A stretch of DNA of 40,634 nt, from contig NZ_RHOG01000025.1 of the NCBI RefSeq assembly GCF_003946405.1, positions 1 through 40,634 on the forward strand, read 5' to 3'. Both the position numbers and the translations under genes were made by a program. The notes below the pieces were generated by a model that did no database searches, had not been told where the DNA came from, and saw only the letters and a program-made list of their open reading frames with translations. Below are positions 610 to 18,657 of the stretch, piece by piece. Position 1 is the stretch's first letter; every line of letters begins with the position of its first letter. This DNA is from Lacticaseibacillus yichunensis (GTDB lineage: Bacteria; Bacillota; Bacilli; Lactobacillales; Lactobacillaceae).

Positions 610-1590
610 TTAGTCGGTCAGCTTTTCACCAAGCGAGCCGCGATGAAGCACCTTAGTCTTTAAGAACTGGTCCGCTGGCGTCTCGTCGGTCTCGATCATC
701 TTCAAAACCGTCTCTGCGGCCATTTCGCCCCAGCGATGTTTGGAGTAGTCGATCGAAGTGAGTTTAGGGTCCAAATAAGTATCGATATAGTCATTATCAA
801 AACCAACGATCTTGATATCTTGACCAACCACACGGCCCCGCGCGTTGAACCCGTCATACAGCCCAATCGCGAGTTCATCGTTCAGCGCGAAGACGCCAAT
901 GTTGGTATCACCAGTGTTGCAGATGACTTCCGCGGCTTTGCGGCCACCTTCAATGGTGAAGTCTCCCGGAATGACCAGGATCGATTTGCCTGAGATCTTC
1001 TCCACTTCTTGGATGGCCGCCTGCGCACGGACCTGCGAATCCCATGAATCGGAAGGCCCAGTGACCATCACGAAATGGTCCACATTCGCGGCAGCCAGCG
1101 CGTCGATTGCCTGTCTGGCACCGGCCGCGTTGTCGACAATGACCCGTGCGACATTTGGGTGTGTGATATCACGATCCATGACGACCAGCTTGTTCCCGGC
1201 GTCTGCGTATTCGCGAATTAAGTCAGTCGGAAACGAGACATCTAAGATGATCGCGCCATCCACAAAACGTTGCGGCACAAACGCGCGCGAACGACTGCCG
1301 CCAGAGCCGACGATCAACTCGTAGTGATGGGCGCGCAGCGTGTTGGCAACGCCATCGATCACGTGACTATAAAAATCCCCGCCAAAGCCATTGACGTAAA
1401 GGCCGATCATATTGGTCTTTTGTTTCTTCAACATCCGCCCAGCAAGACTTGGGGTGTAGTTCAACTCTGCCGCGATAGCTTTGATGCGTTCCCGGGTCTC
1501 CGAAGTGACTTTTGCGTTGTCGTTCAGCGCATATGAGACTGTCGAGATCGAAACGCCTGCCCGTTCGGCGATTTCTCTAATTCCAACCAA
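610..1590 (-). CDS. LacI/GalR-family transcriptional regulator (sugar locus 1)
   Basis: A 326-residue protein with the LacI layout. An N-terminal helix-turn-helix at about residues 3-23 (IREIAERAGVSISTVSYALN) is followed by a hinge (TPSLAGRMLKK) and a periplasmic-binding-protein-like effector domain containing the family motif VGFDNDYIDTYLDPKLTSID. The start is TTG at 1588-1590, set by GGAGGT about 8 nt upstream; no in-frame ATG fits better. It is the last gene of the minus-strand locus encoding GH3, GH94 and an ABC importer. By position it is the likely reader of the GAAACGTTTC operators at about 7539-7548 and 12976-12985; this is an inference. The effector is probably the imported oligosaccharide or a product of it. 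Confidence 0.9.
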   Translation of the reverse strand: MVGIREIAERAGVSISTVSYALNDNAKVTSETRERIKAIAAELNYTPSLAGRMLKKQKTNMIGLYVNGFGGDFYSHVIDGVANTLRAHHYELIVGSGGSRSRAFVPQRFVDGAIILDVSFPTDLIREYADAGNKLVVMDRDITHPNVARVIVDNAAGARQAIDALAAANVDHFVMVTGPSDSWDSQVRAQAAIQEVEKISGKSILVIPGDFTIEGGRKAAEVICNTGDTNIGVFALNDELAIGLYDGFNARGRVVGQDIKIVGFDNDYIDTYLDPKLTSIDYSKHRWGEMAAETVLKMIETDETPADQFLKTKVLHRGSLGEKLTD

Positions 1591-1694
1591 AGCGCGTTAC
1601 CTCCACTTGATATTGATTAAGCATGACGATACACAAAACAGCAACGCGTCTCGTGTTCATTCAATTTCTTATTATTTATGAGGGCCAGCCCCAC

Positions 1695-2465
1695 TCATTC
1701 AGGCGCTAATTCCGCGCAAAGCGGGAAATGGTCAGACGCATAGCGGCCGTCAAACGAGTCAGTCAACACCCCAGTTTTTAGAGTCTTTAACCCTTTGACG
1801 TAGATATAATCGATATTCTCAAGATCGTGCCAAGGCATGGTATAGGTGAAATTCTGGAATGTCCCCGTCGGCCCATAGTGTTGAATGTCTGGCAACGTTT
1901 TGGCGTTCACAAATGCGGCTTCCGTCAAAAGCGTGTGAACCGCTTCCGAAGGTTCTGCATTGTAATCACCCAGGATCACGGTCGGGTACACCGCGATCTG
2001 CGATGCCAACTGCTTCAAAATGACCTTCATCCCGTTCGTGCGCGCCTCTTCCGAGATATTATCCAGGTGGACCGAGATGACCAAGGTCTCAACGCGAGTC
2101 GCACGATCCTGCAAAATGGCCCATACACAAACACGCGGATACGCGGCCCCCGGATAAATGCTCGGTTGCGCCGGCGTCTGGGATAACCAGAAGGCGCCGT
2201 TATCAATCAAATTATAATTGTTTTCCTTAAAGAGTAAACCGATTCCTTCACCTGTGCCATCGCCATCACGTTCCTGACTCAGCAAGTGATACTCGGGAAG
2301 GCCTTCCGTCAGGTCTTTGACTTGGGTCGGCCGAATCTCTTCAACGGCCAGCACATCCCAATCATGAAACTTGATCAGATCAAGCACGTACTCGGCACGA
2401 TATGGCCATTGCCATTCTTTATCATAATCCGTATCGACACGAAGATTATAGGTTGCGATTCTCAT
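1695..2465 (-). CDS. Endonuclease/exonuclease/phosphatase-family protein
   Basis: A 256-residue protein with the DNase I-like metal-dependent hydrolase fold. Visible family motifs are ATYNLRVD at the N-terminus (metal-site Asn), the active-site Glu in AVEEIRP (about 41-46), the catalytic His in ISVHLDN, the GDYNAEP motif and the C-terminal SDHFPL. The family includes nucleases, sphingomyelinases and sugar-phosphate or lipid phosphatases; the sequence does not say which applies. No signal peptide is seen, so it is probably cytoplasmic. It sits between an esterase gene and the LacI gene in a sugar operon, suggesting a phosphatase or diesterase acting on a decorated sugar. The start has a clear AAGGAG site. 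Confidence 0.8.
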   Translation of the reverse strand: MRIATYNLRVDTDYDKEWQWPYRAEYVLDLIKFHDWDVLAVEEIRPTQVKDLTEGLPEYHLLSQERDGDGTGEGIGLLFKENNYNLIDNGAFWLSQTPAQPSIYPGAAYPRVCVWAILQDRATRVETLVISVHLDNISEEARTNGMKVILKQLASQIAVYPTVILGDYNAEPSEAVHTLLTEAAFVNAKTLPDIQHYGPTGTFQNFTYTMPWHDLENIDYIYVKGLKTLKTGVLTDSFDGRYASDHFPLCAELAPE

Positions 2466-2488
2466 CAGCTAATTTCTCCTTATTATTT

Positions 2489-3385
2489 TCACACACGTTG
2501 CGCAAGGGTTGCGGCCTTATCAACTTCCCAGCGAATCCTCGCAATGCCGCCGCCTTCGTGTGCGTGCCCCGTGTACACTTTCAATTCCTTGGGGGATTGG
2601 ATCTGATCAAAAGTGGGCAGGTAATCCGCCATCGGACACGTCGTATCTTGATCACCGCAAGAGGCAAAAACCGGCGCTTTGATCTGCGCGGCAAAGAACC
2701 GTGTGTCGTAAAACCGCATGGTACGTTCGACCGCCGCCCGCTTTTCCGGATGCTCGGCCAGATACTCGCCGATCACGCCGTATGAGCCGGCTCGGGCATC
2801 GATGCGTGCCATGATGTTGGACTGGCTCGGTACATCGCTAAAGATGGCGGTCAGTTCATAGGGGGACAACGCTCCAATCATCGTGGCCAATCCCCCGCCT
2901 TGGCTGCCGCCGCGGAGAAATAGTTTTTGACCAGACGGCGCCACCAGATCATGCGCGATCTTCAACTCCAACAGATGATCAGCAATGACGCGCTTCATGT
3001 AGAAGTCATCAGGATCGGTGAAGCCACGGCCCATCGGCATTTCGCCATAGGACATGCCATAAGGTGCCGTATCCTGTGTTTTGCCACCTTGGCCGCGATT
3101 ATCGATCACCAACACCGAGAACCCAATCGAAGGCCAGTGGTAAAACTGCATCGGATCTTCCAGATGATTCATGTACCCAAGATAATCGATCACTAGGGGG
3201 GAGGTGTGATCGCTTTGGGGCCGAATCAGATAACCGCGAACGCGTTCGCCATAAAGACTTGTGAACGCGACGTCGAACACTTTGACCGTTGTCGCGGCCA
3301 CCTTGGATGGTAAGATCGAAAGCTCGAGGTCACTAGCATTCAGCTCATCGATGAGCCGCTGCCAAAATGCGTTTGCTTCATTCAT
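2489..3385 (-). CDS. Acetylxylan esterase / cephalosporin-C deacetylase family (AXE1, CE7) hydrolase
   Basis: An alpha/beta hydrolase of about 298 residues. Counting from the chosen start, the nucleophile elbow GGSQGGG places Ser at about 161, the acid is in GDQDTTCP (Asp about 247), and the His is in YTGHAHEGG (about 274). The RGQGG motif upstream is typical of the CE7 family. These enzymes remove acetyl groups from small acetylated sugars in the cytoplasm. I chose the ATG at 3383-3385 (MNEANAFWQ) because it overlaps the upstream stop by 8 nt, as expected for coupled genes; the frame stays open to 3436 but the extra 17 residues overlap the upstream gene further. The operon context suggests deacetylation of an imported glucan oligosaccharide. 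Confidence 0.88.
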   Translation of the reverse strand: MNEANAFWQRLIDELNASDLELSILPSKVAATTVKVFDVAFTSLYGERVRGYLIRPQSDHTSPLVIDYLGYMNHLEDPMQFYHWPSIGFSVLVIDNRGQGGKTQDTAPYGMSYGEMPMGRGFTDPDDFYMKRVIADHLLELKIAHDLVAPSGQKLFLRGGSQGGGLATMIGALSPYELTAIFSDVPSQSNIMARIDARAGSYGVIGEYLAEHPEKRAAVERTMRFYDTRFFAAQIKAPVFASCGDQDTTCPMADYLPTFDQIQSPKELKVYTGHAHEGGGIARIRWEVDKAATLAQRV

Positions 3386-3968
3386 CAAAGACGCCAACTT
3401 TCCTGACAAAATAGATCTGAAGATAGCATGCCACAAAGAAACCGAGACACAGGGCCAGATATAGATTGACCTTACCGATCAGCGATAACACCACGACTGG
3501 AATCAGCAGGATCACGATGCTGTATACAATATGCTGAAAGAACAGAATCAGCGCGTTGTTGAATGCCTGGCGAACGCTGTCTTGACTGAGTGCAAAGTCA
3601 TATGCAAAGGTTCCAAGAAGTAGCGCCACGCTGGCCACGAAAAAGATCATCACGGCGGCGGCCCATTGTCCGAGCGCGCCAACCAGCAGCGTTAACCCGA
3701 TCGCCAAGCCTGCCCCGACCAGTAGGATGCCAAAAAGTTGCCAGCCGCGGACAAGGTTCTTCTTCATAATTTTAAAATACGTGGTAAGCACATGATCTTC
3801 TTCGCCAGCCATCACGCGCTTGGTGATCTGGTACAACGCGATGATGGCAGGCCCTAAGAGAACCACCGTCAAGCCGGACAACACGAACACTAAATTGATA
3901 ATGAAGGCATTGGCGGCAAGCGTCATCAACCGGTAGTAAAGCCCATCGACCCTAAATATCTCTTTCAT
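3378..3968 (-). CDS. DUF624 / YesL-like integral membrane protein
   Basis: A membrane protein of 196 residues if started at MKEIFRVDGLYYRL (3968), with several long hydrophobic segments. The N-terminal layout, a short polar head then LYYRLMTLAANAFIINLVF, resembles DUF624/YesL proteins, which commonly sit beside Lpl-type sugar ABC transporters. The role is unknown; an accessory to the importer is usual speculation. The start is uncertain. The frame extends to a GTG at 4016 preceded by AAAGGAT, but that 16-residue extension would be translated from a perfect hairpin (3977-4009) and is not part of the family pattern. The ATG at 3968 lacks a good ribosome binding site. Confidence 0.78.
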   Translation of the reverse strand: MKEIFRVDGLYYRLMTLAANAFIINLVFVLSGLTVVLLGPAIIALYQITKRVMAGEEDHVLTTYFKIMKKNLVRGWQLFGILLVGAGLAIGLTLLVGALGQWAAAVMIFFVASVALLLGTFAYDFALSQDSVRQAFNNALILFFQHIVYSIVILLIPVVVLSLIGKVNLYLALCLGFFVACYLQIYFVRKVGVFDE

Positions 3969-3976
3969 AACAAGCA

Positions 3977-4009
3977 AAGAAAGAGCTACAGTTTCCGCAG
4001 CTCTTTCTT
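3977..4009 (-). terminator. Hairpin between binding-protein gene and DUF624 gene
   Basis: Arms AAGAAAGAGCTACAG (3977-3991) and CCGCAGCTCTTTCTT (3995-4009) pair over 15 bp, with two G-U pairs in minus-strand RNA and a 3-nt loop. It starts about 13 nt past the binding-protein stop at 4022. On the minus strand the right arm is followed by TGCTTGTT, only a weak T tract. It could be a partial terminator or a 3'-end stabiliser that raises the amount of binding protein relative to downstream genes. Confidence 0.6.
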
Positions 4010-4021
4010 CTTTCACATCCT

Positions 4022-5620
4022 TTAGTTTAGCTTCTTGCGGTTAGAGGCCATATTCTTTGTCAGCGTCTTTTCAACGTTGGAATAATTATTCTTCTTCAAG
4101 AAGTCCTTGTAATTGCTGAGGGTGCTGTCAAAGCTTGCGTCACTGTTGGCGCGGATCAGGGAAATAACGGTACTATTCATCTTCGTTTGAACCTGATCAT
4201 AGACACGTGCTTCAGCAGTCCCGGCTTGCGGCTTGATGTTTTCGATCACGAAATGCGGGTATAGCTTGCCAACGCCCCACTTCTGCATCTGGGTCAAAGC
4301 GGAAGTCGTCGGTGCCTTCAAAGCGTTCATTCGGTCGTTGTTGAAGTAGAGGAAGCGGCTGATGCCGTACTTCTTGTTGTACAGGTCGTTATCGGTTTGT
4401 TCCAGCTTGTTAACTTCTGGCAGGTATTCGATCTTGCCATCAGAGTTGTACTTGAAGGTTACGCCTTCGATGCCGTACTTGGTCAGGATCTGGCCTGGGC
4501 GATCAACAAGATAGGTGAAGAGTTCCATGACTTTGGCTGGATCCTTGGCGTCTTTGGTGATGTAGTTGATCAGCCAGCCTGAGATCCCTGTCTGGTTCAA
4601 TGTCGCTTTGCGGCCAGATGTGCTGGACGGGCCATCCACGGCGATGTAACGCGTCTTGGAGTTCTTCATGAATTCGGTGAAGTTCCCGCCTTGGCCACTA
4701 GTGCCGGCCACGAACATGGTCGCGTACTGACCGGTCTTGACCTTTTGATCGAAGGTCGCGCCATCATCGGTAAAGCTGTCGTCGCTGATGTCCTTGTTGC
4801 GATACACGGTGTTGAGGGTCTTCAGCCACTGGATATATTCAGAATCCAGGCTCCGGTCGTAATAGGCGCCATCAGCTGTTTCAAGCGGAACACCGAGGAA
4901 GTCTTGCAGCTTATCGGTGAACCCACCCGCCGTTGTACCGACTGGGGTAAAGCCAAATGGCGTGAGCTTCGGATACTTCGCTGCGATCTCTTTCATCGCC
5001 TTTTCAAAGTTCCCCGGCTTGGTGAAGTCCGGCTTGCCGAGGGCGTCATAGACATCTTCACGGATGACGAAATTATCATTCACCGGAATGGTGCCGCTCT
5101 CGTAGTCTTTCTTCGTGTTGGAATAGTTTGGATACCCATACGTCTTGTTGTCAGACAGCGTGAACCACTTCATGGTGTCTTTGTTGGCAACTTTCAGGAA
5201 ATATGGATCATATTTCTTTGCCAGGTCGTTGAGGGAGTACGCCCAGCTGTTCGCCTTCGTTGCCGCCTGACTTGTCTTATCCATCAAGGTCACGATGTCT
5301 GGCATGTCACCACCTGAGATCAAGGCATTCAGCTTCGAGTCGTCACCAGTGACGAACTTGATGTTGATGTTCAGATCCTTCTTGATCTTCGCTGTGGTCG
5401 CATCTTCACCAAACGGGAGAGTCGTCCAATCAGAATTGATATACCAAGTGATCGTGGTCATCTTTTTCTTCTTGTCGAGCTTCCACGCCGGCGTTTTTGC
5501 ACTCGGAGTGTAACGATCTTTGATCGAAAAATTCGAGTTACCTGCATCCTCTTTGTTGCCGCAGCTGGCCAACGCCAACGCCGCTACGGCAACCATCGCG
5601 CCTAGAAAAGCCTTCTTCAT
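4022..5620 (-). CDS. Lipoprotein sugar-binding protein of ABC importer (locus 1)
   Basis: A 532-residue extracytoplasmic solute-binding protein. The start at ATG 5620 follows AAGGA by about 8 nt; longer in-frame starts to 5668 would overlap the permease gene. Signal peptide MKKAFLGAMVAVAALALASC ends in a lipobox with Cys20 as the lipid-anchored residue. The length and the pairing with Lpl-type permeases place it with the large LipO/YtcQ-like oligosaccharide-binding proteins. By analogy with Listeria innocua Lin1841, which binds sophorooligosaccharides, it may bind beta-1,2-linked glucose oligomers; this rests on gene neighbourhood. It is followed by a hairpin at 3977-4009 that may set its dose. 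Confidence 0.9.
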   Translation of the reverse strand: MKKAFLGAMVAVAALALASCGNKEDAGNSNFSIKDRYTPSAKTPAWKLDKKKKMTTITWYINSDWTTLPFGEDATTAKIKKDLNINIKFVTGDDSKLNALISGGDMPDIVTLMDKTSQAATKANSWAYSLNDLAKKYDPYFLKVANKDTMKWFTLSDNKTYGYPNYSNTKKDYESGTIPVNDNFVIREDVYDALGKPDFTKPGNFEKAMKEIAAKYPKLTPFGFTPVGTTAGGFTDKLQDFLGVPLETADGAYYDRSLDSEYIQWLKTLNTVYRNKDISDDSFTDDGATFDQKVKTGQYATMFVAGTSGQGGNFTEFMKNSKTRYIAVDGPSSTSGRKATLNQTGISGWLINYITKDAKDPAKVMELFTYLVDRPGQILTKYGIEGVTFKYNSDGKIEYLPEVNKLEQTDNDLYNKKYGISRFLYFNNDRMNALKAPTTSALTQMQKWGVGKLYPHFVIENIKPQAGTAEARVYDQVQTKMNSTVISLIRANSDASFDSTLSNYKDFLKKNNYSNVEKTLTKNMASNRKKLN

Positions 5621-5651
5621 CTTTATATCCTTCTTTCTTCCCTTTTTCCCC

Positions 5652-6548
5652 TTATTCCTTAACGGCACCTTCCATCATCCCCGCGATGAAATGCTTTTGA
5701 AGCAACGGATAGATGATGAGAATTGGGACCGTGGTGATCACAATTGTTGCAAGCTGCACGCCGCGCGTTGTCGCCTTAAACACCACGTCGGTCGAGCCGC
5801 TTTGAGTCATATTGCTGAGATTAGAGTTGACGATGATCTCATAGATCTTCATCTGAAGCGGGTAAAGATATTGTTTGGTGATGTAGAGCTTGGTCGTCAT
5901 GAAGTCATTCCACTGGCCGACTCCGTTGAACAAAACGATGGTTGCCAGGGCCGGTTTTGTCAGTGGCAGGTAGATCGAGGTAAAGATCCGCCATTCGCCG
6001 GCGCCATCGATCTTCGCCGATTCCTCAAGCGAGTCAGGAATCTCCCGGAAGAAGTTCATCAAGATGACACAGTCGTAATAGCTGAACAGGGCCGGAATGA
6101 TGTAGACCCAGAACGTATCTAACAACCCCAAGGACTTGATCAGCAAGTAGGTCGGGATCATGCCCCCGCCAAAGTACATCGTGATGACACCCATCGAGGT
6201 ATACAGCCGGCGCCCAATCAGCCGCGACTTGCTCAGCCCATAGGCCACGATCGCGCAAAACAAAGTATGCGTGCCGGCGCCGATCACCGTTTTCAGGACC
6301 GAGATCCCAAAGGCCTTGGGGATACTGCTATCGGAAAAGACTTTCGTGTAGTTTTCCAACGTGAAGCCCTGTGGCCACAACATTAAGCCGCCGCTGGCCA
6401 ATCCTGCGTTTGATGATACGGAGGAAACGAGGATATTCCAGATCGGCACAATGATGATCAGTGAAAACAGCGTCAGGACAATGGTATTGACTAGGTTGAA
6501 CCAAAAGCCTTCTTTTCGAGTCTTTTTACTATGGATCGCAATTTTCAT
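5652..6548 (-). CDS. Sugar ABC transporter permease, LplC/YtcP type (locus 1)
   Basis: A 298-residue membrane protein with about six transmembrane segments. It carries the cytoplasmic EAA-type loop of ABC permeases (SLEESAKIDGAGEWRIFTSI), which docks the ATPase. The C-terminal LLQKHFIAGMMEGAVKE is typical of the LplC/YtcP subgroup. The start ATG follows GGAGGCGAG. It forms a pair with the permease encoded just upstream (12-nt gap) and works with the lipoprotein encoded downstream. No ATPase gene is in the operon, so it must use one encoded elsewhere, such as an MsmK-type shared ATPase. Confidence 0.93.
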   Translation of the reverse strand: MKIAIHSKKTRKEGFWFNLVNTIVLTLFSLIIIVPIWNILVSSVSSNAGLASGGLMLWPQGFTLENYTKVFSDSSIPKAFGISVLKTVIGAGTHTLFCAIVAYGLSKSRLIGRRLYTSMGVITMYFGGGMIPTYLLIKSLGLLDTFWVYIIPALFSYYDCVILMNFFREIPDSLEESAKIDGAGEWRIFTSIYLPLTKPALATIVLFNGVGQWNDFMTTKLYITKQYLYPLQMKIYEIIVNSNLSNMTQSGSTDVVFKATTRGVQLATIVITTVPILIIYPLLQKHFIAGMMEGAVKE

Positions 6549-6560
6549 CCGACTCGCCTC

Positions 6561-7481
6561 CTAGACAATGACCGAGTGGCCGTCGTTCAACTTGCGCGTG
6601 ATGCGATCGGTGATGATCAGCAAGATGACCGAGACGACCGAGATACCTAACCCAACAGCTGTCGCATACGAGAAGTCCCCTTGAGTCAGCCCCATCCGAT
6701 AAACGAAGGAATTGATCACATCCGCGTAATCCTGGTTCTGTGAGTTCATCAAGACCAAGGTCTGATCAAGGTTCGAGCCAAGGAGCCCGCTGACCGTCAA
6801 AATCAGATTGAGCGAGATGATTGGGCCAAGCAGCGGCAGGGTGATCGTTCTGACCTGCGTCACCTTCGAGGCCCCGTCAATGCGGGCGGCTTCATAAAGC
6901 GTCGGGTCGATGCGCGACATCCCGGCAAGATACAAGATGGTGCCCCACCCGACTTCCTTCCAAAGATCTGACAGAACAGCGATCCACCAGTACTGGTTAC
7001 CAGCCAGCAGGTGGTTGGTCCCCTTGTCGATGATTCCCAGTGCCATGAGGATCTGGTTGAAGAATCCGTTTGTCGAGAGCCACGAGATCAACATCCCGCC
7101 CAGGACGATCCATGAGAAGAAATGGGGGATATAGGAGATCGTCTGCACGATCTTCTTGAACCGCATATTCTTGAGCTCAAAGATCATCACCGAGAGCACA
7201 ATGGGAATGACAAATCCAATGGCGAGTTTCAAGAAACTGATGGCGAGCGTGTTGCGGACAGATTGCCAGAAGAACTGATCTGAGACGATCGTCTTGAAGT
7301 TCTCCATCCCGACCCAAGGCGCGCTGCTCATCGTGTCAACAATCGTATAGTGCTTGAAAGCAGTAATGATCCCGTAGATCGGGATGAAATTGAAGATCAC
7401 CATGAAGATGACCCCTGGCCACACCATTAACTGAAGCTGTCCTTGCTTAATAAATCGCTTGAATATACTCATATTGATCAC
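6561..7481 (-). CDS. Sugar ABC transporter permease, LplB type (locus 1)
   Basis: A permease of 303-306 residues with six predicted membrane segments and the EAA loop TLYEAARIDGASKVTQVRTI. The N-terminal pattern LMVWPGVIFMVIFNFIPIYG is characteristic of LplB-like proteins. The start is either GTG at 7481 or ATG at 7472; neither has a strong ribosome binding site. The GTG overlaps the stop of a possible six-codon leader ORF (7478-7498) that does have a GAGGGGAG site, so the gene may be translated by coupling. It is the first gene after an internal promoter carrying a cre box and a LacI-type operator. Confidence 0.92.
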   Translation of the reverse strand: MINMSIFKRFIKQGQLQLMVWPGVIFMVIFNFIPIYGIITAFKHYTIVDTMSSAPWVGMENFKTIVSDQFFWQSVRNTLAISFLKLAIGFVIPIVLSVMIFELKNMRFKKIVQTISYIPHFFSWIVLGGMLISWLSTNGFFNQILMALGIIDKGTNHLLAGNQYWWIAVLSDLWKEVGWGTILYLAGMSRIDPTLYEAARIDGASKVTQVRTITLPLLGPIISLNLILTVSGLLGSNLDQTLVLMNSQNQDYADVINSFVYRMGLTQGDFSYATAVGLGISVVSVILLIITDRITRKLNDGHSVIV

Positions 7482-7498
7482 TCATCTGCTGCGCTCAT
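7478..7498 (-). other. Possible 6-codon leader ORF coupled to the permease
   Basis: On the minus strand GAGGGGAG is followed 9 nt later by ATG and the short frame MSAADE, ending in TGA. The stop overlaps the GTG start of the permease (GTGA overlap). The permease has no good ribosome binding site of its own, so this mini-frame may feed ribosomes to it. It is too short to prove by sequence. Confidence 0.25.
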
Positions 7499-7535
7499 TA
7501 CAGGCCGCTCCCCTCTGAGTATCCTCGAGATTTTT

Positions 7536-7596
7536 GGTGAAACGTTTCTCCAAATAGGATACTAGCACGCGAACCTTTTTTGCGCAAGCGCTTTCT
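7536..7596 (-). promoter_or_regulatory. Promoter with cre box and LacI-type operator for the locus 1 importer genes
   Basis: Minus-strand -35 TTGCGC (7582-7587) and -10 TAGTAT (7559-7564) are 17 bp apart. A CcpA-type cre box, AGAAAGCGCTTGCGCA (7581-7596), covers the -35. A near-perfect 16-bp palindrome GGTGAAACGTTTCTCC (7536-7551, core GAAACGTTTC 7539-7548) lies just downstream of -10, where a LacI-family repressor would block transcription. The same layout occurs at 12973-13020. Confidence 0.72.
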
Positions 7597-7606
7597 TTTC
7601 TGGTTT

Positions 7607-7650
7607 AAAAAATTTTTTCGGGCCTCGGTTGTCTTTAACCTGTTAAGGCC
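7607..7650 (-). terminator. Weak hairpin at the end of the GH94 gene
   Basis: GGCCT (7621-7625) and AGGCC (7646-7650) with inner GGTT/AACC pairing give a bulged stem that overlaps the GH94 stop codon, followed on the minus strand by AAAAAATTTTTT (7607-7618). It could be a leaky terminator between the enzyme genes and the importer genes, which have their own promoter. Confidence 0.35.
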
Positions 7651-10600
7651 GCGTTTCCTCAATCTCCGCCCCGATTTTCGAATCCTTCGATGGCTGCCAA
7701 TCAATGCGGATATTCGGATCAAAATCGGCTGTATCCGTCGACGATTCGTGGTTAAACGTTTCGTTACGAATTGATAATATCTCGCTGAGCAGCGTCCCGA
7801 TGAAGATTCCCGGACCGCTGCTGTACAAACGCCAACCACCTTTGACGCCGACCTGCTGCGTCTGCACCCGCTCAAAATCATTTTGAGCCTGATAGCGATC
7901 CGCAAAATCAGCATCCGAGCTCGAGAAATAAACATTGGCTTGGCGTAGCTCGGCATTCGAGATGCGCTCGGTCAGTTTGATCGGGTCGACCAGCTGCAGC
8001 ATTTGCCAGGCTTCTTGTCGCCGGCCGGCAACCGCCAACGCCCCGGCGTAGCGAATATGGGCATGGACATAAAGCAGCCCAATCTCCCGGCCAAAATTAG
8101 CGGCTTGCTCCGCGCGTTTGAAGATCTTGCTGACGCCGCCTCGATAAGTCGACGGCCGGTTCATCAACCGGACCCCATCTGGGAAAAGCAGGTGCTGGTC
8201 AATCAGTGCCAACGCATGATCCGCCTGTTTTCCTGTCAAAATGCCGCTCAGTACCCCTTGTGATAATGGCAACAGACGGTAATCGATGCCGGTCTGCTGA
8301 TCTCCGGGATGAATGATCTCTTTGACTTGCCCATCTGGTGCGATCTGAATAAAGCCAGGCAGGACGTTATCGCGCATGAAGTACCGCTGGAAATCCTCTT
8401 CCATATCGGTCTTGAGCGCTGCGACCCGGCGCTGGAGCGCATCCCCGTCTGATAGTGCCATCGCCAGTGTCGTCAGCGTCTCAAGCGTCAGCTCCTCCGT
8501 CCAGGTACTTGCCATGGTCGCTTTTTGGGCGGGATCGGCAGGTTGGAGCGTATCATCCCAGTCGCCATCCCCGTACGCCGAGACGTGGGTGCCGGCCAGA
8601 AAATGCGCCACGAGATAATCAAGCTGATGTTCGACATGTGCCCGCAACGAAGTCTTTTCACCAATGAAGTCGTGGGTCGTCGCGCTCATGTATGGCAACT
8701 GCTCGTCCAGAATCTGAAGGTCGTGGGTCGCCTTGAGATAATCCCCGAGAACTTTCAGCGGCCAAACGACGACATCGCCGTGACTTTCATCCGCAAACTG
8801 CGCGCGATACTCATCGTACATAAACCACTGTGGCCAGTTGCCTGTCTCAACGAATTGATGCGAGTAAAGGGTCGTCAGAATCTGCCGCACTTCTGCGTAG
8901 TGGCCCGTGGCTAAAAACAGCTCGACTGGGCCCTGGGAGACGTCGCGCGTCCCCCAAGCGGCCCCGCCGTATTGTTCAAGGCCATGCGGAGATAGCAGGT
9001 GGACCAGGGCATCATGGGCGAACCAGCGCAGAATCGTGGTGATCTCTTGTGCGTCGTCCTTTCTTGCCGGGGCCTCGTCCTTTAATGTCAGATGGTGCAA
9101 GAGGTCCTCAGTGTGCCCCGCATGCGCCTTCCGCGTTGTTGCCGCGTCCAGTTCGTCGAAGTGATTAGCGAGCGCCGTTGAGATTTTCAAATCAGAAGTG
9201 TTTCGATAACTCGCGGTGACCATCTCGAGTGATGGCAACGCCTCACCCAACACGTTCGCAGTATCGCCAAGCTCAAAGTGCCCGTCATGCTGACTGTAAT
9301 CAAGCCAGTAGGTTAGGTCCGGATTTGCGGCGTGCATCGGCATCCCCGACTCTGCTTTGATCGAGAGCTGCTCCCCGTGTGCCACCACAACGGGCTGATG
9401 GCCCATGGTGCCTGCGCTCAGTTGATCCGTGATCAGCAGGTCATAATGGTTGCCTCGCTGCGACTGAAAATGAAGGGTCAACTGATCCGAGTCAGCGGCG
9501 GCATCGTCTGTAATAATCAGCAGATCATCTTCCAGTTGGTAATACCAGGTTGCCCCGTTATAGGCCATCTCAAAGGCACTGGGTAGGCTCAGCAGATGAA
9601 ATTGTTGATCCGCCAATTTGATATAGATGCGGCGGCCCGCTGTCGTGAAGAAGTTGAACGGATCACGCACATCACTTGACAGATTCTGCATATTTGTGTT
9701 GCCAAACACAGTATGTGATTCAAACACCCCTGACATGAATTGGGTCGTTGCCAGCACCGGCGTCGTTGGCGTGAGGGTGTGCCCCGCCATCACGATATTG
9801 CCTGTCTGCCGCTGTTGAAGCAACTCCTTGGCTTGCAAGACAACATGGCGATGGTCCGGCAAAAAGAACGACAACAAGTCGCCATCTTGACGCTCTTCTA
9901 AGCTGCGAGCAGGGAAAAGGGCCATGATCTCCCGCGCTTTCAAAGGAATGCCTGATACTCTTTTGCCCAGCACCGGCTCCGTTTCAATCTGCGAATAGGG
10001 TTGTGGGGCTAATGGCGTCCGCAAAGAGCGCTCATAATCGGCTTGCAACTCAGTGTCAGCGAGCAGAATCCTTCGGTTGTCCTCTGGCTGATCCGGCATA
10101 AAGGCGGCATAAAAGACCGCATGTTTCGCCGCTTGACCGGCTGGGGTTCGAAGCGCGATCAGCGTCGCCTCGTACTGCAATTTCACATTGGCTAACTCCG
10201 GCTGTTGCATGCCAACCGGCGAAGCATCGGCGCGATAGGCTGGCCCGAAAAATTGCATGCCATCCGTGGCATAACTCGCAAGAGGCGTGAAGGCCCCTTG
10301 TTGCAGATAAGGATTTTTCCCAGATTGCGGTTGATTTTGCCGCGATGCGATGGTGATCTGTTGCCCATCGCGTGCCACAAAATGATCGATGTATTGCGAG
10401 GCATAGGCTTCGTTTGACTGCACAAACGAAGCGGCGCCCAAGCCTAGGTCTTGAACATACGTCAGAGCTGTTTCTTCCGTGACCTCGCCGTCAAGATCAA
10501 CGGTCCAGTACCAACCGGAGTCGCCGATCGTCAGCCGAATTAAATAGGACACATCGCCGAACACGCCTTTCCAGGACGCCTGCTCTTTGTCGTGGTTGAA

Positions 10601-10783
10601 GCTACTCTGGGCCCCGGTCAAAAGGCGAGAGACTGTCCCGACCCGCAGATAGATGCCGGCCATACTCCCATCAAGCGCGTTGCCATCGACCTGGTTGATC
10701 ATGATGCCTGACGTTTCGATATGAATCGGCGCGCCGACATCGCTCAACCCGATCGCGGTATTTCCGTGTCGAAGCTTAATCAT
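7643..10783 (-). CDS. GH94 glycoside phosphorylase, probable 1,2-beta-oligoglucan phosphorylase
   Basis: A 1046-residue cytoplasmic enzyme of the GH94 type (N-terminal beta-sandwich, helical barrel). The catalytic-site motif GDGDWDD at about 738-744 matches the GDWND motif that carries the general acid in GH94. The substrate-site stretch GGAAWGTRDVSQGP (606-619) is also typical. The length of over 1000 residues matches the 1,2-beta-oligoglucan (sophorooligosaccharide) phosphorylase group exemplified by Listeria innocua Lin1839, rather than cellobiose phosphorylases (about 800). The reaction would be (beta-1,2-Glc)n + phosphate giving alpha-glucose-1-phosphate + (n-1). Its start overlaps the stop of the GH3 gene by 8 nt. 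Beta-glucan linkage specificity is inferred from length and gene order. Confidence 0.85.
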   Translation of the reverse strand: MIKLRHGNTAIGLSDVGAPIHIETSGIMINQVDGNALDGSMAGIYLRVGTVSRLLTGAQSSFNHDKEQASWKGVFGDVSYLIRLTIGDSGWYWTVDLDGEVTEETALTYVQDLGLGAASFVQSNEAYASQYIDHFVARDGQQITIASRQNQPQSGKNPYLQQGAFTPLASYATDGMQFFGPAYRADASPVGMQQPELANVKLQYEATLIALRTPAGQAAKHAVFYAAFMPDQPEDNRRILLADTELQADYERSLRTPLAPQPYSQIETEPVLGKRVSGIPLKAREIMALFPARSLEERQDGDLLSFFLPDHRHVVLQAKELLQQRQTGNIVMAGHTLTPTTPVLATTQFMSGVFESHTVFGNTNMQNLSSDVRDPFNFFTTAGRRIYIKLADQQFHLLSLPSAFEMAYNGATWYYQLEDDLLIITDDAAADSDQLTLHFQSQRGNHYDLLITDQLSAGTMGHQPVVVAHGEQLSIKAESGMPMHAANPDLTYWLDYSQHDGHFELGDTANVLGEALPSLEMVTASYRNTSDLKISTALANHFDELDAATTRKAHAGHTEDLLHHLTLKDEAPARKDDAQEITTILRWFAHDALVHLLSPHGLEQYGGAAWGTRDVSQGPVELFLATGHYAEVRQILTTLYSHQFVETGNWPQWFMYDEYRAQFADESHGDVVVWPLKVLGDYLKATHDLQILDEQLPYMSATTHDFIGEKTSLRAHVEHQLDYLVAHFLAGTHVSAYGDGDWDDTLQPADPAQKATMASTWTEELTLETLTTLAMALSDGDALQRRVAALKTDMEEDFQRYFMRDNVLPGFIQIAPDGQVKEIIHPGDQQTGIDYRLLPLSQGVLSGILTGKQADHALALIDQHLLFPDGVRLMNRPSTYRGGVSKIFKRAEQAANFGREIGLLYVHAHIRYAGALAVAGRRQEAWQMLQLVDPIKLTERISNAELRQANVYFSSSDADFADRYQAQNDFERVQTQQVGVKGGWRLYSSGPGIFIGTLLSEILSIRNETFNHESSTDTADFDPNIRIDWQPSKDSKIGAEIEETRP

Positions 10784-12956
10784 CTGACTTCTCCTTCAAA
10801 CCCTGGGTGAACGTAAACCCGACTGCTTGGGTCGCATCCGAGCTCAGCCCCGCAAGCAACTCATACTCACCGGCATCTGCGGTATTTGTGAGATCTGTGT
10901 GCATATAACGTAGGCTGTCTTCGGTGACTGAAAACAACAGATCCGCTGTCTCGCCTGCCCCTACTGCGACTTTTTCAAATGCGATCAGGCGTTTGACTGG
11001 TCGAACTGTCTCACCGATTTTTTGGTGCAGATAGAGTTGCACGACAGCACGTCCGTCACGATTTGAGGAATTTTCAAGCCGGACATGCGCGACCATTGGC
11101 TTCTGGCTGCTCATCTCGGTGTTCTCGATCGTGAGACTTTGAAGCGTCACCTGCGCGTAGCCCAAGCCATAGCCGAACGGATAGAGCGGGGTGTTTTCTT
11201 CGTCGATATATTTGGACAGGTATTTATTTTCGGCATCATTCGGCGTGTGCGACAGCGGCCGGCCGGTGTTGTATTGGTTGTAATAGATCGGCACTTGGCC
11301 AACGCTGCGCGGAAAACTCATCGGCAGACGGCCAGAAGGTTCAACTTCGCCGGTCAAGATGCGGGCAATCGCCTCTGCCCCGCGGCTGCCCGGGAACCAG
11401 CCAAAGACAACGGCGTCTGAGAGTGCATCGACTTCACTCAGGTCGAGTGGCCGGCCGGCGATCACGATGGAGATGATTCTCTTACCATCTGCAGCCAGCT
11501 TCCGAAGCAAGGTCATTTGCTCTTCTGGTAGACGAATATCCGTCATGCTGGTGGCTTCCCCACTTTCGGCGCTCGGGATGCCGAGGCAGGCGATGACCGT
11601 GTCATAATGGTGCGCCGAGCCGAGCGCATCTTGTAATTGTTTTTCGTTCAGCTCGTGATAACCCACGCCTGGCACGCTCTTCACCTCACAGCGCTGGCTG
11701 AGCGCCGCCGCAATCGTGTTGTCTGGCGTACTCTTGCCCTGCCAAGACCAACTACCAAGAAGATCGTTCGACTCGCTCAGAGGGCCGGTCAAGAAGACTG
11801 AGGTGCCTGGCTGAAGCGGGAGAATCTGCCCGGCATTTTTCAACAGAACAATGCTTTCCTCGGCAGCATGCTGGGCGTCGACGAGGTGGGCTGGGCTTAG
11901 CTCTGTCGCTGTCTCCCGTTCAATAGAAATGTTTCGATACGGATCTTCAAACAACCCGAGCGTATTTTTCAATTCCAAAATACGCAGGACGGACTCGTCG
12001 ATCAGACGCTTCGTTTCGGCATCCAATGTCGCCGCACGCTTCAGGTACCGGGAATAAGCGAAGGACATCATATCGATATCCACACCAGCCTTGAGGGCGA
12101 GGTCAGAAGCGTGATCGAGGTCTCCGGCCACACCGTGATTGATGAGCTCGCCGATCGCGTCCCAGTCGGAGATCAGGACACCTGAGAAATCCAGTTCTTC
12201 ACGCAAAATGTCGCGCATGAGATGCTGATTGGCAGTTGCCGGCACGCCAAACAAGGTGTTAAAAGACGTCATGACTAGAAGGGCATGCGCCTTGATTGCT
12301 GCGGCATAGGAAGGCAAATACTGTTCGCGGAACCGCCACTCCGAAATATCGACCGTGTTATACTCGCGGCCGGCCTCTGGCGCACCATAAGCGGCGAAGT
12401 GTTTGACGCACGCCGCAATGTGGTCCTCATCCAGTGGGGCCTCACCCTGAAACCCCTGAACGCTTGCGGCGGCCAGTACGGTATTCAGATAAGTATCCTC
12501 ACCGGTCGATTCCATGACGCGGCCCCAACGCGGATCGCGCACAAGGTCGACCATCGGCGCAAACGTCACGTGAATACCGCCAGCTGCGGATTCACTCGCC
12601 GCCACAGCGCTCGCATTTTTAACGATCTCAGGGTCAAAGCTTGCTGCCATCCCCACCGGAATCGGGAAGATGGTCTTATACCCATGGACCACGTCAGCCA
12701 TGAAGAGCAACGGAATATGCAACCGATTGTGCGCTAAAAAGTCGGCTTGAATCGCTCGAACCTGCTTTGCACCGGAGATTCCCAGCACAGAGCCGGACCG
12801 GTAAAGTGTGTCCAGATCCATATGTTGTGCTTGCATCGGGCCGGTGATCGTCGCCTGCCCGTTCGGAAAGAAGTCGGCGCTCAGCTGACCAAGTTGCCCG
12901 ATCTTTTCCTCGATGGTCATTTCTTCAAGAAGTGCCTGTACCTGTGTATTTTCCAT
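10776..12956 (-). CDS. GH3 beta-glucosidase, probably acting on sophorose/beta-1,2-glucosides
   Basis: A 726-residue GH3 enzyme with the (beta/alpha)8 barrel, the alpha/beta sandwich and a C-terminal fibronectin III-like domain (from about 640). The nucleophile is Asp264 in LISDWDAI; KHFAAYG at 185-191 and the substrate-site motif DPRWGRVMES (141-150) are classic. There is no signal peptide, so it works on imported sugar. The length and its position directly before a long GH94 phosphorylase match Listeria innocua Lin1840, a beta-glucosidase that prefers sophorose. It would split the final disaccharide left by the phosphorylase. The start has AAGGAGGAG 7 nt upstream. It is the first gene after the promoter at 12992-13020. 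Confidence 0.9.
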   Translation of the reverse strand: MENTQVQALLEEMTIEEKIGQLGQLSADFFPNGQATITGPMQAQHMDLDTLYRSGSVLGISGAKQVRAIQADFLAHNRLHIPLLFMADVVHGYKTIFPIPVGMAASFDPEIVKNASAVAASESAAGGIHVTFAPMVDLVRDPRWGRVMESTGEDTYLNTVLAAASVQGFQGEAPLDEDHIAACVKHFAAYGAPEAGREYNTVDISEWRFREQYLPSYAAAIKAHALLVMTSFNTLFGVPATANQHLMRDILREELDFSGVLISDWDAIGELINHGVAGDLDHASDLALKAGVDIDMMSFAYSRYLKRAATLDAETKRLIDESVLRILELKNTLGLFEDPYRNISIERETATELSPAHLVDAQHAAEESIVLLKNAGQILPLQPGTSVFLTGPLSESNDLLGSWSWQGKSTPDNTIAAALSQRCEVKSVPGVGYHELNEKQLQDALGSAHHYDTVIACLGIPSAESGEATSMTDIRLPEEQMTLLRKLAADGKRIISIVIAGRPLDLSEVDALSDAVVFGWFPGSRGAEAIARILTGEVEPSGRLPMSFPRSVGQVPIYYNQYNTGRPLSHTPNDAENKYLSKYIDEENTPLYPFGYGLGYAQVTLQSLTIENTEMSSQKPMVAHVRLENSSNRDGRAVVQLYLHQKIGETVRPVKRLIAFEKVAVGAGETADLLFSVTEDSLRYMHTDLTNTADAGEYELLAGLSSDATQAVGFTFTQGLKEKSDD

Positions 12957-12972: not shown

Positions 12973-13020
12973 GGTGAAACGTTTCGATTGTATTGTATAG
13001 CGCTTCCATTTTAAAGGCAA
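12973..13020 (-). promoter_or_regulatory. Promoter, cre-like box and LacI-type operator for GH3-GH94
   Basis: Minus-strand -35 TTGCCT (13015-13020) and -10 TACAAT (12992-12997) are 17 bp apart. A cre-like sequence TGGAAGCGCTATAC lies within the spacer and -10. The palindrome core GAAACGTTTC (12976-12985), within GGTGAAACGTTTCGA (12973-12987), sits just downstream of -10, followed by the ribosome binding site. The operator matches the one at 7536-7551, so one repressor probably controls both promoters. Confidence 0.75.
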
Positions 13021-13228: not shown

Positions 13229-14680
13229 CTACCGCTTCGTCAGGTCGATCACAATCCCGTTTTCCGAGACCGCCATCTGGTCATTGACCAAGTCCACGCA
13301 AAGCGTTGCATTGGTTTGACCATCCTGACTCGTGCGCGTCAGCACAAAATGTGCTGGGTCCACCGCTTTGGCATCGAACTGACCATCCAGATCGAACGCC
13401 CGGCTTCGATTACGGAAGCGCATCAAGTTAAGAAGCGTGGACACTACTGGGCGTTGCACCTCTTCGGCAACTTCGTCCTCAGTGTAATAATGCCGGTTGA
13501 TATTTCGACCTTCCTTTGTTTTTTCGAGAAGGTCCAGGTCATTTGCGCCAGCCAAGAGACCGACGTAATAGACCTGCGGAATGCCTGGGGCGAACATTTG
13601 AATGGCCCGCGCGATCAGATAAGCTGCCTCGTTTTCTCCCAGCGCGGAGAAATAGGTCGAGTTGATCTGGTACACGTCAAGATTATGATAGGCAGCGCTT
13701 GAATAGACTTTCTTCACGTTGGAGCCGCGCTGATAAAGCTGCTGTGTCGTGAAATCGATCTGGTCATCAGATAGGATGTCTTTCACATCGACAACACCGA
13801 TACCGTCATGCGTATCCAGCGTGGTGAACTGGTGCATCGGACTTCGCCGCAACCACTTCAACAGCGGCCGCGCGTCCTGCGCAAAAAGCGTGTAGAGCAC
13901 CAGCATCGGCAACGCAAAATCATAGGTCCAATAGCCGTGCTGGTTGACCTTGTCGACCAACGTATAATGCTCATGAATCTCGGGCAAGACTTCTACGCCA
14001 TCTTCACCAGCGGCTTCTGAAATGCGATCGAGCAGGTCCCAGATCTCTGGCTCAACGAAAAAGTCATTGGTGCCACGTTTTTTCACGGCATAGGCAAATG
14101 CATCCAACCTGATCAGTGCCACGCCATTTGCAGCAAAACGGTTCATTGCCGTGGTCAGATAACGCCAAGTCTCCGGTGTTGTGACATCGAGATCGATCTG
14201 TTCATCGCTGAAGGTATTCCAGACGTGGCGCACCGAACCATCCGCCATTTGAACTTCCTGAACAGGTGCCTTGTCCTTGCGCTTATAGATCTGATCGACT
14301 TCTTCTTGAGTGGGGTGCCCCGCCGGCCAGAACTTGTCCCAATCGAGGAATAGCGTGCTTGAAGGCGATGCATCCCCTTTAGCGATAAAGTCCTTGAACT
14401 CCGGTGACTGCCGAGACAGATGATTGATCATCAGATCCGTCATTAAATAATACTGACTCGCCAGCGCCGCGATATCTGTCCAATCACCAAACCGTGAATC
14501 GATCACGTCATAGCGCTCAGGGGAAAATCCGCGATCGCCTGACGAAGGGAAAAACGGCAGAATATGAAGGCCACCGATCGCGTCCGTCAGATCACTTGCC
14601 AGCACGCGATTCAATGCCTGAAGGTTCGAGCCAAGACTATCTGCATACGTGATCAGCATGACTTGATTTGAAAGTCCCAT
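13229..14680 (-). CDS. gtfA: Sucrose phosphorylase (GH13_18)
   Basis: A 483-residue enzyme that converts sucrose and phosphate into alpha-glucose-1-phosphate and fructose in the cytoplasm. It matches the streptococcal GtfA type closely over its length: MLITYADSLG at the N-terminus, LPFFPSSGDRGF, the nucleophile Asp193 in IRLDAFAYA, acid/base Glu234 in LPEIHEHY, and Asp292 in LDTHDGIGVVD. The ATG start matches the family N-terminus although AAGGAG is about 14 nt away, longer than usual. It is the last gene of an operon after beta-phosphoglucomutase and a GH65 phosphorylase. Relatives in GH13_18 act on glucosylglycerate or glucosylglycerol, but the similarity to GtfA favours sucrose. Confidence 0.9.
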   Translation of the reverse strand: MGLSNQVMLITYADSLGSNLQALNRVLASDLTDAIGGLHILPFFPSSGDRGFSPERYDVIDSRFGDWTDIAALASQYYLMTDLMINHLSRQSPEFKDFIAKGDASPSSTLFLDWDKFWPAGHPTQEEVDQIYKRKDKAPVQEVQMADGSVRHVWNTFSDEQIDLDVTTPETWRYLTTAMNRFAANGVALIRLDAFAYAVKKRGTNDFFVEPEIWDLLDRISEAAGEDGVEVLPEIHEHYTLVDKVNQHGYWTYDFALPMLVLYTLFAQDARPLLKWLRRSPMHQFTTLDTHDGIGVVDVKDILSDDQIDFTTQQLYQRGSNVKKVYSSAAYHNLDVYQINSTYFSALGENEAAYLIARAIQMFAPGIPQVYYVGLLAGANDLDLLEKTKEGRNINRHYYTEDEVAEEVQRPVVSTLLNLMRFRNRSRAFDLDGQFDAKAVDPAHFVLTRTSQDGQTNATLCVDLVNDQMAVSENGIVIDLTKR

Positions 14681-14717
14681 TAGTTTCAGTTCATCTCCTT
14701 CTCAAGCAGTCTTCATG

Positions 14718-15392
14718 TTAGGCATCCTTTGAGGCAAAAGCCTGCTCGATCGCACTGAGCGAGACATCCGCGGTGGAGGCGAACACAAGGTCAGCTTCAT
14801 CGAGAATGGTCGGATCCCCAATGCCCACGGAGAACATTCCTGCATCATTAATGCCCGAGATGCCGGCGGTCGCATCCTCAAATCCGACCGTGGTCGCATA
14901 AGGACTATCGATCTGGTCGGCCGCTACCTCAAAGATATCAGGGGCGGGCTTACCATGCTTGACCGACGCAGGATCCACGATCTTGCCAAGGAGGTCTTCA
15001 AGCTTCAAACGCTTGATGATAAATGGGGCGTTAAAGGAGGCCGATGCGACCGACATCGGGTAATGGTGATCCGCTAATTCTTGCAGAAATTCGCCCATCC
15101 CCGGCAGAATGTCGGCTGGGGTCATTGTTTGAATCAACTGTTTATAGCGATCGTTTTTTTCAGTGGCGATAGCCTCTTTTTCAGCCAGGGTATGCTGCCC
15201 CTCTTGATGCCCGAATTTGATGATCTCTTCAAGGGAATCCATACGGCTACGGCCTTTGAGCAATTCGTTCACGGCCGGGGTGATCGTGATGTCGAGTTTT
15301 TCCTGCGCGACTTCTTTCCACGCCTGATAGTGAAACTTTGCGGTGTCGGTGATCACACCATCTAGGTCAAATACAAAACCAGTAATTGTCAT
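14718..15392 (-). CDS. pgmB: Beta-phosphoglucomutase
   Basis: A 224-residue HAD-superfamily enzyme that converts beta-glucose-1-phosphate to glucose-6-phosphate. The catalytic motif FDLDGVITDTA gives nucleophile Asp9 and acid/base Asp11. The cap-domain motif LLKGRSRMDSLEEI, the SVASASFNAP motif, HGKPAPDIF and GFEDATAGI are all diagnostic of beta-PGM. The start has GAGGT 6 nt upstream. It lies 17 nt after the GH65 gene, as expected, because inverting GH65 phosphorylases release the beta anomer. It would not serve the alpha-glucose-1-phosphate made by the neighbouring sucrose phosphorylase or by GH94. Confidence 0.95.
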   Translation of the reverse strand: MTITGFVFDLDGVITDTAKFHYQAWKEVAQEKLDITITPAVNELLKGRSRMDSLEEIIKFGHQEGQHTLAEKEAIATEKNDRYKQLIQTMTPADILPGMGEFLQELADHHYPMSVASASFNAPFIIKRLKLEDLLGKIVDPASVKHGKPAPDIFEVAADQIDSPYATTVGFEDATAGISGINDAGMFSVGIGDPTILDEADLVFASTADVSLSAIEQAFASKDA

Positions 15393-15409
15393 TTTATTAC
15401 CTCGTTGAT

Positions 15410-17551: not shown

Positions 17552-17569
17552 ACTGTCACTTCCTCATGA

Positions 17570-18595
17570 TTACTTGTCAGGAAATACGCCAGTGCTTTCG
17601 CGCTGAATAAATTTATGTGGAGAAAAGATATGGTGCATATTTGGTGCCACTTTGCCATTCAAGAGTTTATCGACCAGCTGGGCGGCCATACCGCCAATCT
17701 TCTCCATATGCTGATCGATGGTGCTGATTGTTGGCTGAGAATATTCCGTGATAGCGATGTTATCAAAGCCAACCACTTCACAGTCTTCTGGGACGCGGCA
17801 ATGAGCCGCTTTGAGAGCAGTCATGACTCCCATTGCCATCGCATCACTGGCACAGATCACGGCATCGATCTCCCGACCGCTTGCCAGCGCCTTTTGCATG
17901 GCGGCTTCAGCCTTGTCGATGTCAAAATCCGCGTACATGATTGCGTCATCAGATAAGGTCAGACCCGCATCGTGCATTGCCTCGCGAAACCCTTTTTCGC
18001 GAAGATTGCTGACCTGAGCAGACGGAATCCCGTTCATCATGACAGGATGGGACTTACCGTGTCTGAGAATCGCCTGGGTCGCTTCCTTTTCAGCGGCCAC
18101 ATTATCCACAGAAATAGAGACTGTGTTGGCGCCGGGTATTTCCAGGTCGATCATTACGACCGGCGTTTGGCTCTCGGAGATCTGCTTGATGTAAGGGTCA
18201 TCGATGTGAAGTCCCTGCACCACGGCACCGGCGACGTTGCGTTCCATGCAGAACTGATCAAATGTTTTTTCGTGCTGCAGCTTTGTCGTTGTTGGGTAAA
18301 GAACAAATTGCATGGCGTGCGTTTCGCAATAGTTGTAAACACCCAGAATCGTTTGCATTGAGACGCCATCAAAGCGTGAGGCAACCAGATCGTTCAAGAT
18401 CAGCGCAACCGTTTTCAACGATTTCGAAGATAAAGTGCGTGCGGCGATGTTGGGGGTATACCCCAACTTGGCCGCGACCTCATACACTTTTTTTCGCGTG
18501 TGTTCGCTAATATCTGGGTACCCGTTAAATACACGGGAGACGGTGCTTGACGTCACCCCGGCCGCCTTTGCGACATCATAGATCTTCACTGCCAT
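17570..18595 (-). CDS. LacI/GalR-family regulator (sugar locus 2)
   Basis: A 341-residue LacI-type regulator. Helix-turn-helix at about 4-24 (IYDVAKAAGVTSSTVSRVFN), hinge TPNIAARTLSSKS, and an effector-binding domain with the motif VVGFDNIAITEYSQPTISTID. The recognition helix differs from that of the other LacI protein in this window (TSSTVSRV against SISTVSYA), which fits the two different operator types seen. The gene is inside the locus, downstream of a hairpin terminator that follows the permease genes, so its own expression may depend on readthrough. A G-rich site precedes the ATG. Probable targets are the GAAAACGTTTTC-type sites at 24911-24926 and 24134-24145; this is an inference. Confidence 0.9.
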   Translation of the reverse strand: MAVKIYDVAKAAGVTSSTVSRVFNGYPDISEHTRKKVYEVAAKLGYTPNIAARTLSSKSLKTVALILNDLVASRFDGVSMQTILGVYNYCETHAMQFVLYPTTTKLQHEKTFDQFCMERNVAGAVVQGLHIDDPYIKQISESQTPVVMIDLEIPGANTVSISVDNVAAEKEATQAILRHGKSHPVMMNGIPSAQVSNLREKGFREAMHDAGLTLSDDAIMYADFDIDKAEAAMQKALASGREIDAVICASDAMAMGVMTALKAAHCRVPEDCEVVGFDNIAITEYSQPTISTIDQHMEKIGGMAAQLVDKLLNGKVAPNMHHIFSPHKFIQRESTGVFPDK

Positions 18596-18646: not shown

Positions 18647-18657
18647 CTCTGGTCGTA

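Follow-up and report, generated by a model that had tools for sequence, protein, structure and literature searches.

The closest described counterpart of the locus analysed here is lin1838-lin1843 of Listeria innocua, which, in the portions of the two reports available to us (PMC3960220, PMC4757417), combines SOGP, a phosphorylase of beta-1,2-oligoglucans, with the GH3 beta-glucosidase Lin1840, a LacI-family regulator and an ABC importer. A sequence-only reading of a 40,634-nucleotide stretch of Lacticaseibacillus yichunensis (NZ_RHOG01000025.1; hereafter the window, one complete contig of a 2.56-Mb Lactobacillaceae genome) had proposed that the same set of genes occurs there, extended by an acetyl esterase, an EEP-fold protein and DUF624, and that decorated beta-1,2-glucans may be used. 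The window does share with Listeria an SOGP, a Lin1840-like GH3, a LacI regulator, an ABC importer and the same predicted chemistry, but, compared through the PDB chain of Lin1841, its importer is not Lin1841-like, and DUF624, a CE7-type esterase and an EEP protein are added. We regard the Lpl-type importer found here as the mark of a variant SOGP locus in which the Lin1841-type importer has been replaced. The pathway is of a known kind, while the locus type is a variant that unites ordinary gene families in a new, recurrent combination. We consider it somewhat better than an even bet that the whole is explained by a variant-type beta-1,2-glucooligosaccharide operon in which decorations are removed in the cytoplasm before phosphorolysis.

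The GH3, the GH94 of more than 1000 residues, the large lipoprotein, the two Lpl-type permeases, the esterase, the EEP protein and DUF624 are all present as announced, with correct coordinates and matches far above chance, in a single run on the minus strand from 12956 down to 610, listed here with two predicted operators:

12976..12985, no strand assigned: predicted LacI operator, exact copy of GAAACGTTTC, before GH3
10776..12956, minus: GH3 beta-glucosidase, Lin1840-like, predicted sophorose hydrolase (Pfam; best PDB match Lin1840, 4zoa)
7643..10783, minus: GH94, 1046 aa, SOGP by sequence (PF21958, PF21250, PF17167; LpSOGP 5h3z)
7539..7548, no strand assigned: predicted LacI operator, exact copy of GAAACGTTTC, before permease A, within the 161-bp gap after SOGP
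6561..7481, minus: Lpl-type ABC permease A (PF00528; syntenic across variant loci)
5652..6548, minus: Lpl-type ABC permease B (PF00528)
4022..5668, minus: large lipoprotein, predicted to bind oligosaccharides, 548 aa, not Lin1841-like
3378..4016, minus: DUF624/MusI-type membrane protein, predicted importer partner (PF04854; NF052431 MusI_fam below its cut-off)
2489..3436, likely true start 3385, minus: CE7-type acetyl esterase, predicted O-acyl remover (PF05448)
1695..2465, minus: EEP-fold phosphoesterase, metal-dependent, predicted to take off a phosphorus-linked group (PF03372)
610..1590, minus: LacI-family regulator (PF00356, PF13377)

Adjacent genes overlap or almost abut, except for the gap between GH94 and permease A and for 104 bp before LacI; the contig ends at base 1. 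Pfam E-values were 2.8e-62 for the GH3 N domain, 3.7e-15 for EEP and 3.6e-11 for DUF624, and the Pfam search gave no match for the binding lipoprotein. A second species of the genus (genome G013) has the identical gene order.

The phosphorylase and the beta-glucosidase

The GH94 protein carries both SOGP-specific domains (SOGP_N, PF21958, 4.7e-64; PF21250, 1.2e-60) and the catalytic domain PF17167 (4e-11). Its best and sole strong PDB match is LpSOGP (5h3z, E 6.4e-208), phosphorylases of any other kind being absent from the PDB matches at E <= 0.001. The accessible part of the LpSOGP paper names sugar- and phosphate-site residues, with D760 as the catalytic acid, and gives the substrates as chains of at least three glucoses (PMC5309861). 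All 17 residues named there (catalytic acid; subsites -1, +1 and +2) are identical in the window protein when mapped by hand through the GH94-LpSOGP alignment, S1006 lying one residue beyond its printed part. Across the SOGPs of 104 distinct loci, 15 of the 17 are invariant, Y141 being F in one protein and G623 differing in four. From profiles, PDB matches and residues, and as far as sequence can tell, GH94 is an SOGP (EC 2.4.1.333), predicted to phosphorolyse beta-1,2-oligoglucans. The GH3 enzyme finds its best PDB match in Lin1840 (E 7.2e-183), whose active-site residues, in the part of the report available, include Arg572 and Tyr583 (PMC4757417). It keeps all nine of the residues listed, namely D88, R146, K185, H186, D264, W265, E467, R566 and Y579, among them the nucleophile D264, the acid/base E467 and, at subsite +1, W265, R566 and Y579; these were mapped by hand on the Lin1840 alignment and the positions then checked. 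The SOGP domains, the single strong match to LpSOGP, the conserved ligand residues and the Lin1840-like GH3 bear out the assignment of the locus to beta-1,2-glucan oligosaccharides, and we hold it highly probable that the operon serves the use of beta-1,2-glucooligosaccharides.

The SOGPs of the window and of G013 sit on a long branch (0.74 and 0.69 changes per site), and their SOGP_N scores are the lowest among the 16 SOGP-bearing genomes of the family, as would be expected had the enzyme drifted to another linkage or substrate. Such a drift seems very improbable to us, as every subsite residue named for LpSOGP is kept and both the GH3 and the operator fit the same pathway. SOGP_N occurs in 2 of the 30 genomes searched for the genus and in 16 of the 397 for the family, the latter spread over 7 of 40 genera. 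PF10091, which we take to be the domain of GH144 beta-1,2-glucanases, had no match in the window's own genome, other endo-beta-1,2-glucanase families lying outside that search.

An exchanged importer behind a shared predicted operator

It is in the importer that the equation with lin1839-1843 fails. The window binding protein gave no match to Lin1841 (5ysb) at E <= 0.001, either as a single sequence or as a six-sequence profile. A control query with the 414-aa binding protein from L025, a further lactobacillus SOGP locus, recovered Lin1841 at E 7e-123. The transfer of function is corrected accordingly: an annotation as Lin1841 homologue would be unwarranted for the window protein. Its PDB matches are weak (9pmy, the 5gub group and AlgQ2), and an AlphaFold2 model built from six sequences reached a mean pLDDT of 51.8, too poor for a fold search. 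The importer consists of a large lipoprotein, two permeases and DUF624, with no ATPase in the locus, an arrangement for which we adopt the name Lpl-type. DUF624, which we presume to be linked to MsmX-dependent Lpl/YtcQ-type importers, accompanies the Lpl-type importer both with and without SOGP; for this reason it is no evidence of decoration, and that part of the decorated-substrate proposal falls away. The window genome has one OB_MalK domain match (MalK-type ATPase), on another contig. In one Lpl-type locus (L204) a MalK-type ATPase gene lies between CE7 and EEP, in keeping with an importer whose ATPase is borrowed at other loci. A shared ATPase is likewise borrowed by the Lpl/YtcQ-type importers of Bacillus subtilis, according to the available portion of the report (PMC5730181), but their substrate is pectin oligosaccharides and not beta-1,2-glucan.

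How widespread is this arrangement? With the binding protein as query, 395 genomes of the order yielded 46 match rows in 42 genomes at E <= 1e-140; neighbourhoods were fetched for 32 of these rows, 5 were already known and 9 (47-52% identity) were left out. Every locus whose binding protein is at least 53% identical (20/20) has adjacent SOGP, GH3, both permeases and DUF624; LacI is present in all 20 (in the 20th after a wider fetch), CE7 in 19 and EEP in 16. At 51% identity or less, SOGP occurs in none of the 12 order loci fetched; GH1 is found in 11, ROK in 11 and GH3 in 9, the locus without GH1 (L209) being a 4.4-kb contig too short to judge. These Lpl-type loci without SOGP (GH1/GH3/ROK or GH5/ROK) resemble the variant in their binding protein (46-51% identical), in similar permeases and, by BLAST, in DUF624 (11 of the 12), but they differ in lacking SOGP and in their operator. 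The window genome itself holds a second Lpl-type importer of this kind (L130, G000:C1:176000-195900), with a binding protein 46% identical, ROK, DUF624, LacI and GH5 genes and no SOGP. The 23 SOGP-linked binding proteins group as one clade (SH-aLRT support 100, quick search) in a 49-member tree.

The 104 distinct SOGP loci comprise 23 of Lpl type, 63 of Lin1841 type and 18 others. This set omits repeats of the same contigs (L022, L024, L026, L028, L029, L030, L032), the duplicates L189, L191, L202 and L203, and L067, which has no full-length SOGP; relatives found through SOGP are the best 80 of 541, contig ends cut some loci, and the Lpl-type class is enriched through the use of the window binding protein as a query. 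The loci found via SOGP alone include 7 of Lpl type, the window among them, with CE7 in 6 and EEP in 6. Mapped on the SOGP tree, a FastTree in which 17 forks are open, importer type shows six or more changes, with no distinction made between gains and losses. Three gene orders occur: importer, CE7 and EEP after SOGP (window, G013, Lapidilactobacillus achengensis); the same genes ahead of GH3 and SOGP (enterococci and others); and CE7, plus EEP where present, after LacI (L195, L196, L203, L204). Within the Lactobacillaceae, 13 of 16 SOGP loci have an L025-like binding protein, taken as Lin1841-like through L025, the one searched against the PDB, and 3 are of Lpl type (the window, G013 and L. 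achengensis); the 13 carry syntenic LacI homologues 40-66% identical to that of the window. The binding protein and permeases of L. achengensis share 80-90% identity with those of the window (90% for permease B), compared with 66% for EEP, 64% for GH3, 56% for CE7, 54% for SOGP and 41% for DUF624. This contrast suggests a separate movement of the importer.

The exchange took place behind a common predicted regulator site. With one mismatch allowed, the window holds 5 sites for GAAACGTTTC against a mean of 1.76 in shuffles. Among SOGP loci, 18 of the 23 with an Lpl-type importer and 56 of the 63 with a Lin1841-type one have the motif no more than 250 bp ahead of the importer gene examined (permease A or the gene for the Lin1841-like binding protein); it precedes none of 25 related Lpl-type importers without SOGP; in two Lpl-type loci (L198, L201) the core is absent before both GH3 and permease A. 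Since GAAACGTTTC is common to both SOGP types and missing from the 25, two unrelated importers share one predicted regulator site, and the variant importer lacks the operator of its own relatives. The half-motif AAACGTTT was rejected as SOGP-specific, as it occurs in 14 of the 25 loci without SOGP, inside a different palindrome. The Lin1841-type loci of Lactobacillales and Bacillales (63/104, including L044 of Enterococcus italicus) are akin to the variant in SOGP, in GH3 (59/63) and in the operator, but have another importer. The sequence comparisons establish the identity of SOGP and GH3 with intact active sites, the replaced importer, the shared operator and the recurrent linkage of importer, esterase and EEP set out below.

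Esterase, phosphoesterase and possibly decorated substrates

The CE7 protein has an AXE1 domain (PF05448, 1.8e-48) and aligns with cephalosporin-C deacetylase (5gma, E 4.1e-40) over the GxSQG and HE stretches, the motifs with the catalytic serine and histidine that we take to define CE7. The best PDB match of the EEP protein is 3l1w (E 6.7e-91), listed as uncharacterised; it also matches 4c1r, named mannosyl-6-phosphatase (E 8.9e-30). Nine EEP residues, N7, E43, H133, D135, D167, N169, D219, D245 and H246, are invariant across five loci and presumably have a catalytic or metal-site role. Within the stretches examined, 22 of 23 Lpl-type SOGP loci have CE7, which is absent from all 63 Lin1841-type and all 18 other loci; the corresponding figures for EEP are 19/23, 1/63 and 1/18. 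One Lin1841-type locus (L079) shows a weak CE7-like match (23% identity) at a looser cut-off only, not at that used for counting. Over 6 independent pairs, CE7 changes together with importer type in an average of 5.8 (median p 0.03) and EEP in 5.2 (median p 0.06), neither ever in the opposite direction. Among the titles and abstract starts retrieved from the open-access literature (PMC), none concerns an Lpl-type importer, CE7 or EEP in company with SOGP.

What might an esterase and a phosphoesterase contribute to such a pathway? In the portions of the reports available, glucans of the beta-1,2-glucan type carry O-acetyl and O-succinyl groups in Dickeya (PMC4726272), phosphoglycerol, succinate and phosphoethanolamine in E. 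coli (PMC10514313), and glycerophosphoryl or succinyl groups at C6 in Sinorhizobium (PMC7569799). Between them, CE7 and EEP might handle the ester and the phosphodiester borne by natural beta-1,2-glucans. Given the linkage of both genes to the importer and this acyl and phosphoglycerol chemistry, we lean slightly towards decorated oligosaccharides as the substrates; this part of the sequence-only proposal is strengthened by the way CE7 and EEP track the importer.

Several observations weigh against it. CE7 esterases are broad in substrate. EEP is missing from 4 of the 23 Lpl-type loci, and one (L070) lacks both CE7 and EEP; the two SOGP loci L096 and L097 have EEP but no Lpl importer, and in G042 an EEP gene adjoins a Lin1841-type locus, lying outside the counted stretch; if added, it would raise the Lin1841-type count to 2/63. 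At 80% conservation, no alignment column tells the SOGPs of the Lpl and Lin1841 locus types apart. EEP was rejected as a marker confined to SOGP loci, since of 17 same-subfamily matches 14 are in SOGP loci and 3 are not; those 3 occupy general chromosomal places, one of them in a genome without SOGP. The unchanged active sites of SOGP and GH3, the general chromosomal places of EEP relatives and the example of L070 speak for a plain pathway, its importer swapped for one with another preference of length or shape and CE7 and EEP being passengers or agents of general clean-up. We regard this as unlikely, though a serious contender, as CE7 tracks the importer on 5-6 independent branches of the tree and across three gene orders, a consistency beyond that expected of a passenger. 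A differently decorated substrate has also to be considered, for instance the acetylated sophorose contained in yeast sophorolipids, or a phosphate monoester, with EEP acting as a phosphatase and not as a glycerophosphodiesterase. The match to 4c1r speaks for the latter. Against this alternative, the sequence evidence picks no particular decoration, and sophorose alone would need no SOGP, which requires at least three glucoses according to the part of the paper at hand (PMC5309861). Overall we find this alternative improbable.

Further observations concern the surroundings of EEP. In L233 and L234 (G517, G584) an Lpl-type SOGP locus without EEP is accompanied by a same-subfamily EEP elsewhere, in a common chromosomal context. 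In G042 (L152:4423-17969) the Lin1841-type SOGP operon continues past LacI with a GH35-like gene, GH13, EEP (56% identical to that of the window) and a YitT membrane protein. EEP adjoins a YitT-family membrane protein in two genomes (L153:9179-10635, L152:4423-5806), one of the two pairs being away from any SOGP within the stretch seen.

Based on the decorated-substrate reading, we propose a model in which we infer the decorations, the order of the steps, the role of DUF624 and the inducer. The large lipoprotein would catch the oligosaccharide outside the cell, and the two Lpl-type permeases with their DUF624 partner would import it, powered by the MalK-type ATPase encoded on the other contig. 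In the cytoplasm, the CE7 esterase may strip O-acyl groups from the chain and EEP may take off a substituent linked through phosphorus, most likely a glycerophosphoryl group; this would free the glucose chain. SOGP would then phosphorolyse it to alpha-glucose 1-phosphate and finally sophorose, which GH3 would split, while the LacI repressor would act at the two GAAACGTTTC sites.

Adjoining loci and implications

A second sugar locus adjoins the operon (13229-24097, minus strand), with a sucrose phosphorylase (TIGR03852 above cut-off), LacI, an ABC importer, a HAD protein that seems to resemble beta-phosphoglucomutase, and two GH65 proteins that in the PDB match kojibiose phosphorylase best (4.8e-81 and 1.4e-134). 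If these GH65 proteins are kojibiose phosphorylases, alpha-1,2- and beta-1,2-glucoside pathways would lie side by side. Further along are a WxL surface cluster (27935-33775, plus strand) of an L-type lectin/MucBP/WxL protein, two WxL-interacting proteins and a WxL protein, and, at 36273-40503 on the minus strand, a sortase (36273-37127) and a SpaA/pilin-like protein (39265-40503) with two genes between them that are sortase-like by eye. In G013, two overlapping frames (L241:7367-9909) cover consecutive portions of a single GH31 domain, which would fit a split or frameshifted gene.

The locus type bears on how beta-1,2-glucans are thought to be used. The beta-1,2-glucans of Gram-negative bacteria carry acyl and phosphorus groups, and the SOGP and GH3 literature, in the parts available to us, deals with the bare glucose chain; the recurrent locus described here names two candidate removers of such decorations, an esterase and a phosphoesterase. 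It also presents a conserved pathway whose importer has been exchanged several times under the same predicted operator. We speculate, at somewhat less than even confidence, that the Lactobacillales possess a dedicated, repeatedly exchanged module of Lpl importer, DUF624, CE7 and an EEP phosphodiesterase removing glycerophosphoryl groups, through which an SOGP pathway might be supplied with anionic beta-1,2-glucans, bearing glycerophosphoryl and acyl groups, from neighbouring Gram-negative bacteria.

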